A stretch of DNA of 64,000 bases from Euzebya sp. (lineage in GTDB: Bacteria; Actinomycetota; Nitriliruptoria; Euzebyales; Euzebyaceae). Below, in pieces: positions 3,111 to 58,397 of this stretch; the first letter of the stretch is position 1, and each line of letters opens with the position of its first letter. The notes under the pieces are model-generated. The model worked only from the letters and a program-made list of their open reading frames with translations, was not told the origin of the DNA and ran no database searches. The stretch is from positions 1 through 64,000 of the forward strand of contig NZ_CAXQBR010000089.1 of the NCBI RefSeq assembly GCF_964222135.1. The letters are read 5' to 3'. Both the position numbers and the translations under genes were made by a program.

Positions 3111-3941
3111 ATGCCCGCATCGCCTCCGCTGCTCAGCATCGGCAGCTTCAGCCGTCTGGCCCACCTGAGCGTCCCCGCCCTGCGGCACTACCACGAGCTC
3201 GGTCTCCTCGAGCCCGCGGCGGTCGACCCCCGGACCGGGTACCGCCGCTACGCGCCCGAGCAGGCCGAGGCCGCCCACCTGATCCGTCGACTGCGGGCGC
3301 TCGAGATGCCCCTCGAGGAGGTCGCGGCGGTCCTCGCCACCGACGACCCCGACGCCCGCGACCGGGTCATCGCTGCCCACCTCGCCCGCATGGAGGCGGC
3401 CCTGGACCGCACCCGCTGGGCGGTCGCGAGCCTCCGCGCCCTGCTGTCCGATGACGTCGAGGGCGGCCTGGTCGTCGAGCGGCGCCACCTCCCCGCCTGC
3501 CGGGCGCTGACCCGCACGACCGTCGTCGACGTCGACGCGATCAGCGACTGGTTCGCCGACACCCACCCGCGGCTGGGGCGGGCCCTCGCGGACCTGGGGG
3601 TCGCGCCGGTCGGCCCGTTCGGGGCGACCTACGACGATGCGTGGTTCGCCGACGGTGCCGGGACGGTGACCGCGTTCGTCCCGATCGCCACCGCCACCCG
3701 CGTCGGCGCGGACCTGGGCGGCCTTGAGGTCATCGAGCTGCCCGCCGGCGACGTCGCCGTGGCCACCCACGTCGGCGGCTACGGCGACCTCGACCGGACC
3801 TACGGCGCGCTCGGCCGCCACGTGGCGGAGGCCGGCGTCGAAGGGCCCGGCCCGATCCGCGAGCACTACCTGATCGGTCCCGGCGACGCCCCGGACCCGG
3901 CGGGCTGGCGCACCGAGGTGTGCTGGCCCGTCACCCGCTGA
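3111..3941 (+). CDS. MerR-family regulator with GyrI-like effector domain
   Basis: A 276-residue BmrR-like transcription factor. Residues 8-75 are the MerR winged-helix domain: IGSFSRLAHLSVPALRHYHE, then the wing RTGYRRYAPEQ. A linker helix (about 80-115) leads to a C-terminal GyrI/AraC-effector-like domain (about 125-276) that in this family binds hydrophobic or cationic small molecules. The operator lies directly upstream, and the start is leaderless. The VOC gene begins 19 nt after the stop with its own Shine-Dalgarno, so the two are probably co-transcribed and the VOC protein is a likely target of the sensed compound. No cysteines are placed as in the metal sensors, so a drug or small-molecule sensor is the better reading. 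Confidence 0.93.
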   Translation: MPASPPLLSIGSFSRLAHLSVPALRHYHELGLLEPAAVDPRTGYRRYAPEQAEAAHLIRRLRALEMPLEEVAAVLATDDPDARDRVIAAHLARMEAALDRTRWAVASLRALLSDDVEGGLVVERRHLPACRALTRTTVVDVDAISDWFADTHPRLGRALADLGVAPVGPFGATYDDAWFADGAGTVTAFVPIATATRVGADLGGLEVIELPAGDVAVATHVGGYGDLDRTYGALGRHVAEAGVEGPGPIREHYLIGPGDAPDPAGWRTEVCWPVTR

Positions 3942-3960
3942 CGACGAGGAGGAGCACACC

Positions 3961-4335
3961 ATGTCCGCACGCATCGCCCACATCTGCGTCGACGCCGTCG
4001 ACGCCGCCGCCCTGGCCGCCTTCTGGAGCCAGGTGCTCGACCAGCCCGTCGACGAGGGCGCGAGCCCGTACTACGCCGGCATCGGCATCGCCGACCGCCA
4101 GCCGGGACGGACCGCCATGATGTTCCTGATGGTCCCCGAGCCGCCGTCGGGGACGAAGAACCGGGTCCACGTCGACCTGGTCGCCGACGGGGACCTCGCG
4201 GCGGAGACCGCGCGCGTCGTCGCCCTCGGCGCCACCCACGTCGGGGACTTCGACGAGTACGGCACCACCTGGGCCAGCTTCACCGACCCCGAGGGCAACG
4301 CCTTCGACATCGCGGTGGCCGGCGCCCACCAGTGA
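3961..4335 (+). CDS. VOC-family (glyoxalase-like) protein
   Basis: A 124-residue vicinal-oxygen-chelate fold protein with two beta-alpha-beta-beta-beta modules: IAHICVDAVDAAALAAFWSQ opens the first and the stretch ending FTDPEGNAFDIAVAG closes the second. The EGNAFDI motif is the usual C-terminal VOC signature carrying the acidic metal-ligand position. It resembles the small glyoxalase-like domain proteins (Glyoxalase_6 type) that bind or modify small molecules, and no specific substrate can be read from the sequence. GAGGAGGAG precedes the ATG at a good distance. It forms an operon with the upstream MerR gene. Its 3' end converges closely on the CWB2 gene on the other strand (15 nt). Confidence 0.88.
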   Translation: MSARIAHICVDAVDAAALAAFWSQVLDQPVDEGASPYYAGIGIADRQPGRTAMMFLMVPEPPSGTKNRVHVDLVADGDLAAETARVVALGATHVGDFDEYGTTWASFTDPEGNAFDIAVAGAHQ

Positions 4336-39771: not shown

Positions 39772-39780
39772 CGGCCTCCC

Positions 39781-39819
39781 TGGTCAGCAGACCTGGTCAG
39801 CAGATCTGGTCAGCCGTCC
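39781..39819. repeat. 13-bp tandem repeat, three copies
   Basis: TGGTCAGCAGACC, TGGTCAGCAGATC and TGGTCAGCCGTCC follow each other at 39781, 39794 and 39807. The third copy holds the stop codon of the minus-strand sigma-factor remnant. Confidence 0.85.
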
Positions 39820-40929
39820 GCGGCGGCGAGCGCCCGACCGTTCAGGTAGCGCTGCTCCGGCGTGCTGGACGTCAGCCGGGCGGCCGTCGCGAAGCGCTCG
39901 GCAGCCGCGGCGCGCTGCCCGGCCATATCGAGGAGGTGGCCGGTGACGGCGTGGAGGCGGTGGTGGCGACGAAGCGACGGGTCGTCCGCCAGGGGCCCGA
40001 CGATCGCGAGGGCCGCGGTCGGCCCGTCCCGCATCGCGACGGCCACCGCCCGGTTGAGGGTCACCGCCGGTCCGGGGGCGACCCGCTCCAGCATCTCGTA
40101 GAGCGCGACGAGCTGGGCCCAGTCCGTCGCCTCCCAGGCGGGCGCCTCGGCGTGCACCGCGGCGATCGCCGCCTGCAGCTGGAAGGCGCCGACCTCGCCG
40201 ACGGGGAGGATCCGCTCCAGGAGGGCGACCCCTTCGGCGATCTGGTCCTGGTCCCACCGGCGCCGGTCCTGGCCCTCGAGGGGGACCAGGTCACCGCGCT
40301 CATCCACGCGCGTGCCGCGACGGGCGTCGGTCAGCAGCATCAGCGCGAGCAGGCCGGCGACCTCCGGGTCCGTCGGCACGAGCTCGCAGAGCGACCTGGT
40401 GAGCCGGATCGCCTCCCCGGTCAGCCGCACGTCGACGAGCCGGTCACCGCGAGAAGCGGTGTGCCCCTCGGTGAAGACGAGGTGGAGCACGTGGAGGACC
40501 GCGGCGCTGGGCGGTCGTCAGGCCCGCAACCGCCCGCAGGGTCAACGCGACCTGGGAGCTCCGCGTCAGGACGGGGTGGCAGCACAGCAGCAGCAGGGGG
40601 AGGGTGTCGTCGCGGTCCGGCACGGCGACGGTCTCCGCATCGGGCGACAGGGCGACGCGCGCCTCGCGGGCGGACCGTGCGCGCTCGCTGCGGATCGCGT
40701 CGACGACCCGGCGAGAGGCGACGCGCACGAGCCACCCCCGCGGGTGGTCGGGCACACCCTCGACGGGCCACTGCACCGACGCGGCGAGCAGCGCCTCCTG
40801 CGCGGCGTCCTCACACCGCTCGACGTCGCCGTACCGGCGGATCAGCGCCCCGAGGACGTGCGGGGCCTCGCGGCGCCACACGTCCTCGAGCCGGACCTGG
40901 CTCACCGCCGGGTCACTGGTCGCCGCCAC
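39810..40929 (-). pseudogene. ECF sigma factor (ECF42/SigJ-like with TPR-like extension), internally deleted
   Basis: The 5' part (GTG 40929) encodes an intact sigma region 2 and linker: RLEDVWRREAPHVLGALIRR, GDVERCEDAAQEALLAA, HPRGWLVRVASRRVVDAI, LPLLLLCCHPVLTRSSQVAL, RAVAGLTTA. The 3' part, in another frame, continues AAVLHVLHLVFTEGHTASRG, EAIRLTRSLCELVP and the long C-terminal extension of this sigma class up to 39810. Between them, near 40505-40515, the region-4 helix-turn-helix that recognises the -35 element is gone, together with a frame change (deleted length is 2 mod 3). The product cannot act as a normal sigma factor. The gene overlaps the end of the YCII gene, the usual ECF42 partner. 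Confidence 0.88.
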
Positions 40930-41305
40930 CGGGCCACATGGCCGGGCGCAGCTCGACGGTCTCGCCGGGGCCGGCGAACGTGGCCGTGATCTCCTCGGCT
41001 CGCGCCAGGCTCTACACGTCGATCAGGAAGAACCCGGCGAGGTGCTCCTTCGCCTCGGAGTACGGCCCGTCGGTCACGACGGGATCGCCGTCGGCCCAGC
41101 GGAAGAGCCGTGCGGTCGAGGGATCCGCCAGCGCCTCGCCGAGGACCAGCTCGCCGCTCGCCTCCAGCTCGGTGAGCAGCGCCTCGAAGGCGGACTCCAT
41201 CCGCTCGCGCTGGGCGGCGGGCAGCGCCTGGAACTCGGGCAGGTGGTCACCCGTCGGGTGGCCCCACGGCTGGGGGTTGGAGTGGATCAGGATCACGTAC
41301 TTCAT
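40913..41305 (-). pseudogene. YCII/DGPF-domain protein with premature stop
   Basis: The family is the YCII-related DGPF proteins that accompany ECF42 sigma factors. The frame starts MKYVILIHSNPQPWGHPTGD and contains VVTDGPYSEAKEHLAGFFLI. At 41012-41014 (minus-strand TAG) it stops after residue 97, but the same frame continues with SLARAEEITATFAGPGETVE and LRPAMWPGGGDQ to a proper stop at 40913. The family expects Glu at the stop position (DVESL), so a single GAG to TAG change explains it. The complete gene would encode 130 residues and overlap the sigma gene start by 17 nt. A truncated 97-residue product may still be made. Confidence 0.87.
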
Positions 41306-41416
41306 GGCATCTCCTCGGGGAGGGAGGGCGCGGGTCGCTGGCCTCGTGTGGGGAGACGTCGGATCCGATCGCGCGTCATCGACATGTCGGGCGCACCGCC
41401 GGTCAGATCGGGTCGG

Positions 41417-45046: not shown

Positions 45047-45501
45047 TCAAGATCGCCACCGCCCAGCTGTGGGTCCACGACCAGGACGAGGCGCTGGACT
45101 TCTACGTGGACAAGATCGGCATGGAGGTCCGCGAGGACGTCACGGTCCCCGAGATGGGGAACTTCCGCTGGCTGACCGTGGCCCCTCCGGGTCAGGAGGA
45201 CGTCACCATCGTGCTGATGGCCGTCCCCGGCCCGCCGATGCTCGACGAGCAGAGCCGCCAGCAGGTCCTCGACCTGGTGGCGAAGGGCTTCGCCGGCACG
45301 GTGTTCCTGACGACCGACGACTGCCAGAAGGCCTACGAGGAGCTGTCCGCCAAGGGCGTCGAGTTCACCGAGACCCCCGAGCAGCGCCCCTACGGGATCG
45401 ACGCCGGCTTCCGCGACCCCTCCGGCAACTCCGTCCGCCTGACCCAGGTGATGGAGATGTCGCCGGCGTTGGCGTCGCACTGGCGCGCGGCCCAGATCTG
45501 A
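45043..45501 (+). CDS. VOC-family protein paired with an AraC regulator
   Basis: A 152-residue glyoxalase/bleomycin-resistance-like protein. The first module starts IKIATAQLWVHDQDEALDFY and the second ends IDAGFRDPSGNSVRLTQV. The sequence FYVDKIGMEV is a standard VOC feature. It begins at the ATGA overlap with the AraC gene and has GAGGGAG upstream. Substrate unknown. AraC-VOC pairs of this type are widespread in actinobacteria. The stop codon lies within the first arm of a hairpin repeat that also abuts the convergent RtcB gene. Confidence 0.9.
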   Translation: MIKIATAQLWVHDQDEALDFYVDKIGMEVREDVTVPEMGNFRWLTVAPPGQEDVTIVLMAVPGPPMLDEQSRQQVLDLVAKGFAGTVFLTTDDCQKAYEELSAKGVEFTETPEQRPYGIDAGFRDPSGNSVRLTQVMEMSPALASHWRAAQI

Positions 45502-45612
45502 GGGTTGGGTGCGCATACGGACCTGACGCTCAGATCTCAGGCCCAGGTGACCGGATGCCGGGCCCAGATCTGAGGGTTGGGTGCGCAGACGGACCTGAGG
45601 CTCAGATCTGGG
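45491..45612. repeat. Two copies of a hairpin-forming repeat between VOC and RtcB genes
   Basis: The units at 45491-45539 and 45563-45612 are nearly identical over about 49 bp (sharing CCCAGATCTGAGGGTTGGGT, then GCGCA(T/G)ACGGACCTGA). Each is an inverted repeat: in the second, CCCAGATCTGAG (45563-45574) pairs with its complement at 45601-45612. The first copy covers the stop of the VOC gene, and the array replaces the 3' end of RtcB. It may act as a bidirectional terminator. It may also be a small dispersed element; only one locus is visible here. Confidence 0.9.
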
Positions 45613-46688
45613 GTCTGGATCGGCGGCTGCCCCGCTCGACGCCAGGTCCGCCCCTCCATGGCCTTCTCGAGGTCCGCGCCGGTGAACTGCCGGCGCGCGG
45701 CCCCGCGGGACATCCGCCGTCCGGCGCCGTGGGCGGCGGAGTGGTAGCTGGCCGGGTTCCCGAGCCCGCGGACCACGAACGAGCCGGTCCCCATCGAGCC
45801 GGGGATGACGCCGAGCTCGCCCTCCCGCGCGCTGATCGCACCCTTGCGGGTGATCCACAGCTCGCGGCCGTCGTGGGTCTCGCGCCGCGCGTAGTTGTGG
45901 TGGTTGTTGATGGTCCGGACCTCTGCGACGGGTCGGCCCACGCGCTCGGCGAGGACGGTCCGGGCCACCTCGACCATCCGCCGCCGGTTGGCGAAGGCGT
46001 ACGCCTGCGCCCAGGTCAGGTCGCGGATGTAGGCGTCGAACGCCGGGGTGCCCTGGACCAGGAACGCCAGGTCGGGGTCGGGGAGACCGGTCAGCGCGTC
46101 GCGCATCAGCCGCTTCGCGCCCTCGATGTGGCCCAGTGCCAGGCTGTTCCCGGTCCCCCGGGACCCGGAGTGGAGCATCAGCCACACCACCTCTCGCTCG
46201 TCGGTGCACAGCTCGAGGAAGTGGTTGCCCGACCCGAGCGTCCCGAACTGGGTTGGGGCCTTCGCGCGCAGGCGGGCGTCGTCGCGCACCGACGGGGGCG
46301 GGGGGTGGGCGGCGGCGAAGGCCTGCCAGTCCGGGTCCTCCTCGGCGTGTGCGTACCCGAGCCCGGCGGGGATCCGCTGCGCCCACCCGTCGAGGACCGG
46401 GGCCAGGTCGTCGGGGAGGTCGGCGGCGGTCAGGTCGGTCTCGGTCGCGACCACGCCGCAGCCGATGTCGACCCCGACCGCGGAGGGGATGATCGCCTCC
46501 CGCGTCGGGATCACCGACCCGATCGTGCAGCCCATGCCCCAGTGGGCGTCGGGCATCAGCGCGACGTGCCCGTCGATCGCGGCGACGGTCGCGGTCGCGA
46601 GCGCCTGGGCCCGCGCCGTCTCGTCCAGCATCGACGCCCAGCTGAGCACCCCGTCGCCCAGCCGCTGTGGCATCCGGTCCTCACTCAT
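45537..46688 (-). CDS. rtcB: RtcB-family RNA ligase lacking its C-terminus
   Basis: RtcB joins RNA 2',3'-cyclic phosphate or 3'-phosphate ends to 5'-OH ends with GTP and Mn. The conserved ligands are present in order: MPDAHWGMG, VGVDIGCG (metal Cys), GSGNHFLE, LHSGSRGTGN, INNHHNYARRE and SAAHGAGRRMSR with the guanylylated His. The usual C-terminal 50 residues, containing the YKDID motif and the terminal Lys-Gly that contacts GMP, are missing: after GRTWRR the frame reads into the hairpin repeats (QTPDLSLRS, CAPNPQIWA) and stops at 45537. Activity is therefore doubtful. ATG 46688 has GGGAGGGG just upstream. The gene diverges from a Cys-rich mini-protein gene. Confidence 0.87.
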   Translation of the reverse strand: MSEDRMPQRLGDGVLSWASMLDETARAQALATATVAAIDGHVALMPDAHWGMGCTIGSVIPTREAIIPSAVGVDIGCGVVATETDLTAADLPDDLAPVLDGWAQRIPAGLGYAHAEEDPDWQAFAAAHPPPPSVRDDARLRAKAPTQFGTLGSGNHFLELCTDEREVVWLMLHSGSRGTGNSLALGHIEGAKRLMRDALTGLPDPDLAFLVQGTPAFDAYIRDLTWAQAYAFANRRRMVEVARTVLAERVGRPVAEVRTINNHHNYARRETHDGRELWITRKGAISAREGELGVIPGSMGTGSFVVRGLGNPASYHSAAHGAGRRMSRGAARRQFTGADLEKAMEGRTWRRAGQPPIQTPDLSLRSVCAPNPQIWARHPVTWA

Positions 46689-46722
46689 GCCCCTCCCTAC
46701 CCCGCTGGTGCGGCGACGACCA

Positions 46723-46736
46723 ATTGTCCGTACAAT
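46723..46736 (+). promoter_or_regulatory. AT-rich promoter element with short inverted repeat
   Basis: ATTGT (46723-46727), 4-nt spacer and ACAAT (46732-46736) form a small inverted repeat that includes a good -10 box, TACAAT at 46731-46736, 32 nt before the mini-protein start. It is the only AT-rich stretch in the RtcB/mini-protein divergent spacer. Confidence 0.55.
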
Positions 46737-46768
46737 CTGTCCCGGACGCCACGATCGGGAGAGACGCC

Positions 46769-46936
46769 ATGTGCATGCCAGCACGCTGTGAGACCTGTCA
46801 GAAGACGACGTGGTCGGGGTGCGGCCAGCACGTCGACCAGGTGATGCGCGCCGTGCCCGCCGGCGAGCGCTGCACCTGCACCGCCGCGGACCGCTCCCCG
46901 CGGAGCGGCTGGTTCCAGCGCCTCCTCGGCCGCTGA
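46769..46936 (+). CDS. Cys-rich 55-residue mini-protein
   Basis: A short protein with a zinc-ribbon-like pattern: MCMPARCETCQKTTWSGCGQ followed by HVDQVMRAVPAGERCTC. The CxTCxKTTWxGCGxHV signature is shared by a widespread family of about 40-60-residue proteins in actinobacteria and other bacteria. The four or more Cys and one His suggest a structural metal site; the function is not known. GGGAGAG precedes the ATG by 6 nt. The basic tail SGWFQRLLGR is variable among relatives. It stands alone, divergent from rtcB. Confidence 0.85.
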   Translation: MCMPARCETCQKTTWSGCGQHVDQVMRAVPAGERCTCTAADRSPRSGWFQRLLGR

Positions 46937-57816: not shown

Positions 57817-58397
57817 ATGCGGACAGGAACGCTCGTGCGGGACGACCAGGAGCTGGTCGCGAGGGTGGCGGAGGGGGCCCGCGGCGACGCGTTCGCCGAC
57901 GCGATCACCGGCGGCGCCTACGCCGCGGAGGCCGGCGTGCCGATCCTGCTCACCCCCCGTCCGAGCTGAACGAGACGACCCGACGGTTCATCGTCGACCA
58001 CGGCATCGGCGAGGTCATCGTCCTCGGCGGCACCGCCGCGGTCGACCCGCCGACCGTCGACGCGATCCCCACCCTCACCCGCCGGATCGCCGGTGGCGAG
58101 CGCACCGGCACCGCCGCAGCCGTCGCGACCGAGCTGTGGGCCGCCGAGGGCCTGGCCGGCGGCGGTGTCGTGCTGGTCGACGTCCGCGCCGACGACGGCT
58201 GGCAGACCGCCCTGTCCGCGGCGGTGGTGTCGGCTCTGGCCAACGCGCCGCAGCTCGGGGTCGAGCCCCCTCCCGCCGGCGCCTCGTCGGCGACGCTGCA
58301 GACCGCGGCGCAGCTGGGCGCGCCGGTCATGGGCTTCGGCTCGACCGCCCAGGTGAGCGACGACCAGATCGCGGAGGTGACGACCGCAGCGGGCTGA
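57817..58397 (+). pseudogene. CWB2 repeat remnant, frame disrupted and 5'-truncated
   Basis: The frame from ATG 57817 reads MRTGTLVRDDQELVARVAEG and then the CWB2 core GDAFADAITGGAYAAEAGVP and ILLTP before a stop. One added C in the six-C run at 57953-57958 restores ILLTPPSELNETTRRF, IVLGGTAAVDPPTVDAI, RIAGGERTGTAAAVATE and GWQTALSAAVVSALANAPQL to the stop at 58397. No signal peptide or N-terminal module precedes it, so besides the frame error the gene has lost its 5' end. It is most like the last repeats of the protein at 34608-36671. A terminator still follows. Confidence 0.8.

Follow-up and report, generated by a model that had tools for sequence, protein, structure and literature searches.

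A probably recently inactivated ECF42-type sigma factor/YCII module in a Euzebya genome

The ECF42 arrangement consists of a YCII gene, an ECF sigma gene and a DUF6596/TPR-like extension (PMC8999054; PMC6180224). The activity of these sigma factors depends on the extension and on its contact with region 4 (PMC8999054; PMC9023288), and the promoters of one of them, S. meliloti RpoE10, have the form TGTCGG-N17-CGTC (PMC6180224). Here we describe a module of the same composition that carries two lesions, found in a stretch of 64,000 nucleotides of a Euzebya sp. genome (assembly GCF_964222135.1, contig NZ_CAXQBR010000089.1, positions 1 to 64,000, hereafter the window). Judged from its sequence, it is a degenerate member of the ECF42 type, with the YCII gene, the ECF sigma gene and the DUF6596/TPR-like extension all recognizable; the initial annotation had already named it an ECF42-type sigma factor with a YCII partner, and both domains and gene order agree with this assignment. 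Sigma-70 region 2 is present and region 4 is not, the long C-terminal extension is there but out of frame, a YCII/DGPF-type gene lies adjacent, though interrupted by a TAG, and a TGTCG-N17-CG(T/A)C promoter is predicted by sequence match. Since region 4 is absent, the locus would be a degenerate relic rather than a functional ECF42 member. The features are collected in Table 1.

Table 1. Features of the broken module, in window coordinates.
Feature	Position	Strand	Description	Basis
Predicted ECF42-type promoter, TGTCGA-N17-CGAC	41358..41384	(-)	79 nt upstream of the YCII ATG	pattern match only
Shine-Dalgarno-like GAGGAG	41311..41316	(-)	precedes the YCII ATG	sequence
YCII-domain gene	40913..41305	(-)	130 codons, broken at codon 98; natural stop TGA at 40915-40913	PF03795, homologue alignment
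In-frame TAG (lesion 1)	41012..41014	(-)	YCII product cut to 97 aa; strand with the family's invariant Arg removed	
Sigma gene, 5' part	40510..40929	(-)	GTG start overlapping the YCII stop, region 2, through ...AGLTTA	PF04542, alignment
Deletion junction CAGC (lesion 2)	40506..40509	(-)	loss of 125 nt and with it region 4; frameshift	homologue alignment
Out-of-frame tail of the truncated sigma ORF, up to its stop	40444..40509	(-)		GC3 down to 0.455 in that frame
Sigma gene, 3' part (DUF6596-containing C-terminal extension)	39810..40505	(-)	frame differs from that of the 5' part	PF20239 110 bits, GC3 0.944

The YCII gene, which has the DGP motif and overlaps the sigma gene downstream of it, reads MKYVILIHSN...DGPYSEAKEHLAGFFLIDV from its ATG up to the TAG, and then continues in frame for a further 32 codons, SLARAEEITATFAGPGETVELRPAMWPGGGDQ, to the natural stop. 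Several lines of evidence indicate that this tail belongs to the gene, as had been claimed when the remaining frame was called intact. The Pfam profile score (PF03795) rises from 29.9 to 41.1 bits once the TAG is read as X, the tail retains coding composition (GC3 0.935), and a codon-usage HMM, trained on the contig that carries the module, spans the TAG in one segment without a break. In the alignment, all 162 homologous YCII stretches extend at least 14 residues at and beyond the stop column, and the tail retains the near-invariant Ala of the family and the invariant Arg of its VELRP strand. What did not hold is the statement that the family has Glu at the stop column: this column is variable, with Arg the commonest (41 of the 162 homologues), followed by Ala (24), Pro (22), Lys (19), Glu (13) and Asp (13). 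A Glu codon, one substitution away from TAG, is nevertheless a conceivable ancestor.

The sigma gene is broken in a different manner. Region 2 is preserved (PF04542, 35.8 bits) and no Pfam match to region 4 was obtained in the broken copy, while the DUF6596 extension is encoded in a different frame from region 2. The frame runs to ...LRAVAGLTTA, is followed by CAGC, and the extension resumes with AAVLHVLHLVFTEGH... in another frame, the predicted truncated product being of 161 aa. In intact relatives region 2, region 4 (PF08281) and DUF6596 share one frame, and region 4 maps at the deletion site. Exactly 43 residues separate the two junction residues in 104 of 105 aligned homologues (35 in the remaining one), that is 129 nt where this copy has 4, and therefore 125 nt, or 41 codons and 2 nt, are missing. 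The initial annotation had placed the break at 40505-40515 and described a loss of region 4 together with a frameshift, both rightly; it was equally right that the two lesions are of different kinds and that neither lies at a homopolymer. No convincing repeats that might have caused the deletion were found at the junction. Directly downstream of the 3' end of the sigma gene, at 39779-39819, the 13-nt unit CCTGGTCAGCAGA is present in three tandem, imperfect copies.

Upstream of the operon, the predicted promoter reads TGTCGATGACGCGCGATCGGATCCGAC. A related sequence, TGTCGA-N17-CGTC, precedes YCII genes in three genomes of the genus, at about -79 to -90 (counted from the end of the scanned stretch). 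The ECF42-type pattern is present before four modules in the genus genomes, not before all of them, and no match was found at the three intact modules of this same genome nor at the other modules of the same genus genomes. With the loose form of the pattern (TGTCGA or TGTCGG, spacers of 14-19), 0.04 matches are expected per 250 nt on one strand.

The genome contains four DUF6596 genes, namely the broken copy and those of the modules C68, C14 and C19, which are uninterrupted and each adjacent to a YCII gene. These three modules of the same genome (G000) have the gene order and the domains of the broken one, but are intact, and they support the alignment on which the two lesions were called rather than showing it to be wrong. 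Their aligned sigma regions are about 34-56% identical to that of the broken copy, so they are paralogues and not recent duplicates, and no second, intact allele of the broken module was found elsewhere in the genome. Among 66 genomes of the class, the closest relative of the extension (53% identity) belongs to genome G007, in a module with the same order of YCII and sigma genes, both intact, which is the nearest class relative found; no orthologue above about 53% identity was detected in the class, and the nearest contig matches beyond the class set are 45-54% identical. Furthermore, no syntenic copy of the module was found in the class genomes, nor near the 70% relative of the neighbouring Gfo/Idh/MocA gene in genome G003. 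In G003, a relative within the genus, a different ECF42-type module has a YCII gene (G003:C3, L147, about 3873-4240) that is interrupted in frame by a TAA near codon 32 (...TQEAFGR*GRALAEAG...); the sigma gene of that module is open, and the stop is independent of the TAG at 41014-41012. Altogether, two of about 94 YCII matches in the class contain a stop, both from this genus, numbers too small for a claim.

As to the age of the inactivation, GC3 is 0.94-0.96 on either side of each lesion. At 90 sigma columns with a conservation of 90% or more among the homologues, the broken copy departs from the consensus 7 times, compared with 2-9 times in most genus members, 24-30 times in three divergent paralogues and 1-5 times in the listed members of the class from outside the genus. 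Mean identity to the family is 0.436, as against 0.431-0.437 for the two nearest homologues. Accelerated evolution as a mark of old decay was considered and rejected, there being no excess of departures relative to genus members; an apparent excess, 7 where the median for the full set of homologues is 1-2, disappeared once the comparison was made with the genus. Outside its two lesions, the module appears free of any long decay. Both lesions had been correctly read when the whole module was called decayed, but the word itself is too strong, given that nothing unusual is seen in the promoter, the ribosome site, the codon composition or the conserved residues. As these elements and the start codons are normal, the module would have been disabled recently, unless the lesions are assembly errors. 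In turn, stop-creating changes make up about 2-2.7% of single substitutions in both genes, so a stop is an unusual change, yet it can be the first one.

Other genes in the window are also broken. An rtcB gene on the minus strand (46784-45537; region 45489-46784) matches profile positions 1-378 of 426, the last 48 or so being missing, and at its 3' end the gene passes into a 71-nt palindromic repeat (GGCCCAGATCTGAGGGTTGGGTGCGCA...), present in two copies, the core of which was found nowhere else in the genome. A search for RtcB gave no second match in this genome and none in the three other genomes of the genus. In addition, there is a remnant of a CWB2 (cell-wall-binding repeat 2) gene at about 57840-58397, which lacks its 5' part and has a frameshift at a C6 run near 57950.

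We consider it probable that the ECF42-type operon bears in the living organism both lesions present in the assembled sequence, and that it was inactivated recently. That one or both are instead errors of assembly or sequencing, the organism carrying an intact module, seems unlikely to us, even if the assembly is in 111 contigs (97.1% complete, 2.08% contaminated), the flanks of the lesions look fully functional and the promoter intact, and only two lesions within about 1.4 kb, with all else seemingly functional, are what local errors would produce too. Such an explanation would need two errors of different kind inside 510 nt, neither at a homopolymer, in a genome whose other contigs lack an intact allele; the further broken genes nearby (rtcB and the CWB2 remnant) also weigh against it, though one of them is broken at a C6 run. 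It is far less credible that the pieces still work as separate proteins (a 97-aa YCII, a region-2 fragment, a DUF6596/TPR extension), which might, for example, titrate away core polymerase or a partner. The extension frame is indeed open from a GTG at 40490 with normal codon use, conserved positions are kept and the shortened YCII keeps its motif; however, a search for a ribosome site before this GTG found none, the pieces lack both region 4 and the strand that bears the invariant Arg, and the extension of ECF42 factors acts through region 4 (PMC9023288). Moreover, the same split occurs in 0 of 105 aligned homologues, a set picked for having both sigma parts in one frame, from whose count splits elsewhere would escape. 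Least plausible of all is the idea that one locus makes a protein of region 2 alone and a free-standing DUF6596/TPR extension, which would constitute an ECF42-derived regulator without region 4.

A refinement of recent inactivation is that only one of the lesions mattered to selection. The deletion in the sigma gene may have silenced an operon that regulates itself, after which the stop in YCII arose as a neutral change, or else the stop in YCII may have been the earlier of the two. We regard this as possible but somewhat doubtful. The predicted ECF42 promoter before the operon is consistent with such a refinement, and the G003 module, where YCII has a TAA and the sigma gene is open, indicates that YCII loss can come first, but the evidence gathered here places neither lesion before the other.

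Under recent inactivation by both lesions, the 125-nt deletion would have shifted the sigma frame and removed region 4, whose roles are to recognize the -35 element and to dock the C-terminal extension. The nonsense substitution would separately truncate the YCII partner, with the loss of its last conserved strand, and since the sigma start overlaps the end of YCII, it may interfere with translational coupling as well: with ribosomes terminating about 83 nt short of the sigma start, coupled translation of the sigma gene may be lower. A sigma product devoid of region 4 should be unable to read the -35 element or to dock the extension, and the copy should thus be dead; with both lesions, the operon would yield no functional sigma factor and no complete YCII protein. 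We infer that both lesions are real, that function was lost and that selection was relaxed; loss of selection on the module, in particular, is likely. This would be ordinary pseudogenisation of one of several paralogues.

If real, the case is a data point on how multi-copy ECF42 modules turn over, with one of the genome's four freshly dead; beyond this, it is routine pseudogenisation. The natural module of G003, with a broken YCII and an open sigma gene, could serve to test the need for the YCII partner in ECF42 control.

Compared with known ECF42 modules such as those of S. venezuelae Sven_0747, P. putida ECF-10 and S. meliloti RpoE10 (SMc01150, with the YCII protein SMc01151), the module described here is alike in having a YCII-related gene directly upstream of the ECF sigma gene, and likewise shares with them region 2, the DUF6596/TPR-type extension and, by prediction, a TGTCG-type promoter before the YCII gene. 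It differs from them in that the broken copy is devoid of region 4, its frame is broken and its YCII gene is truncated.
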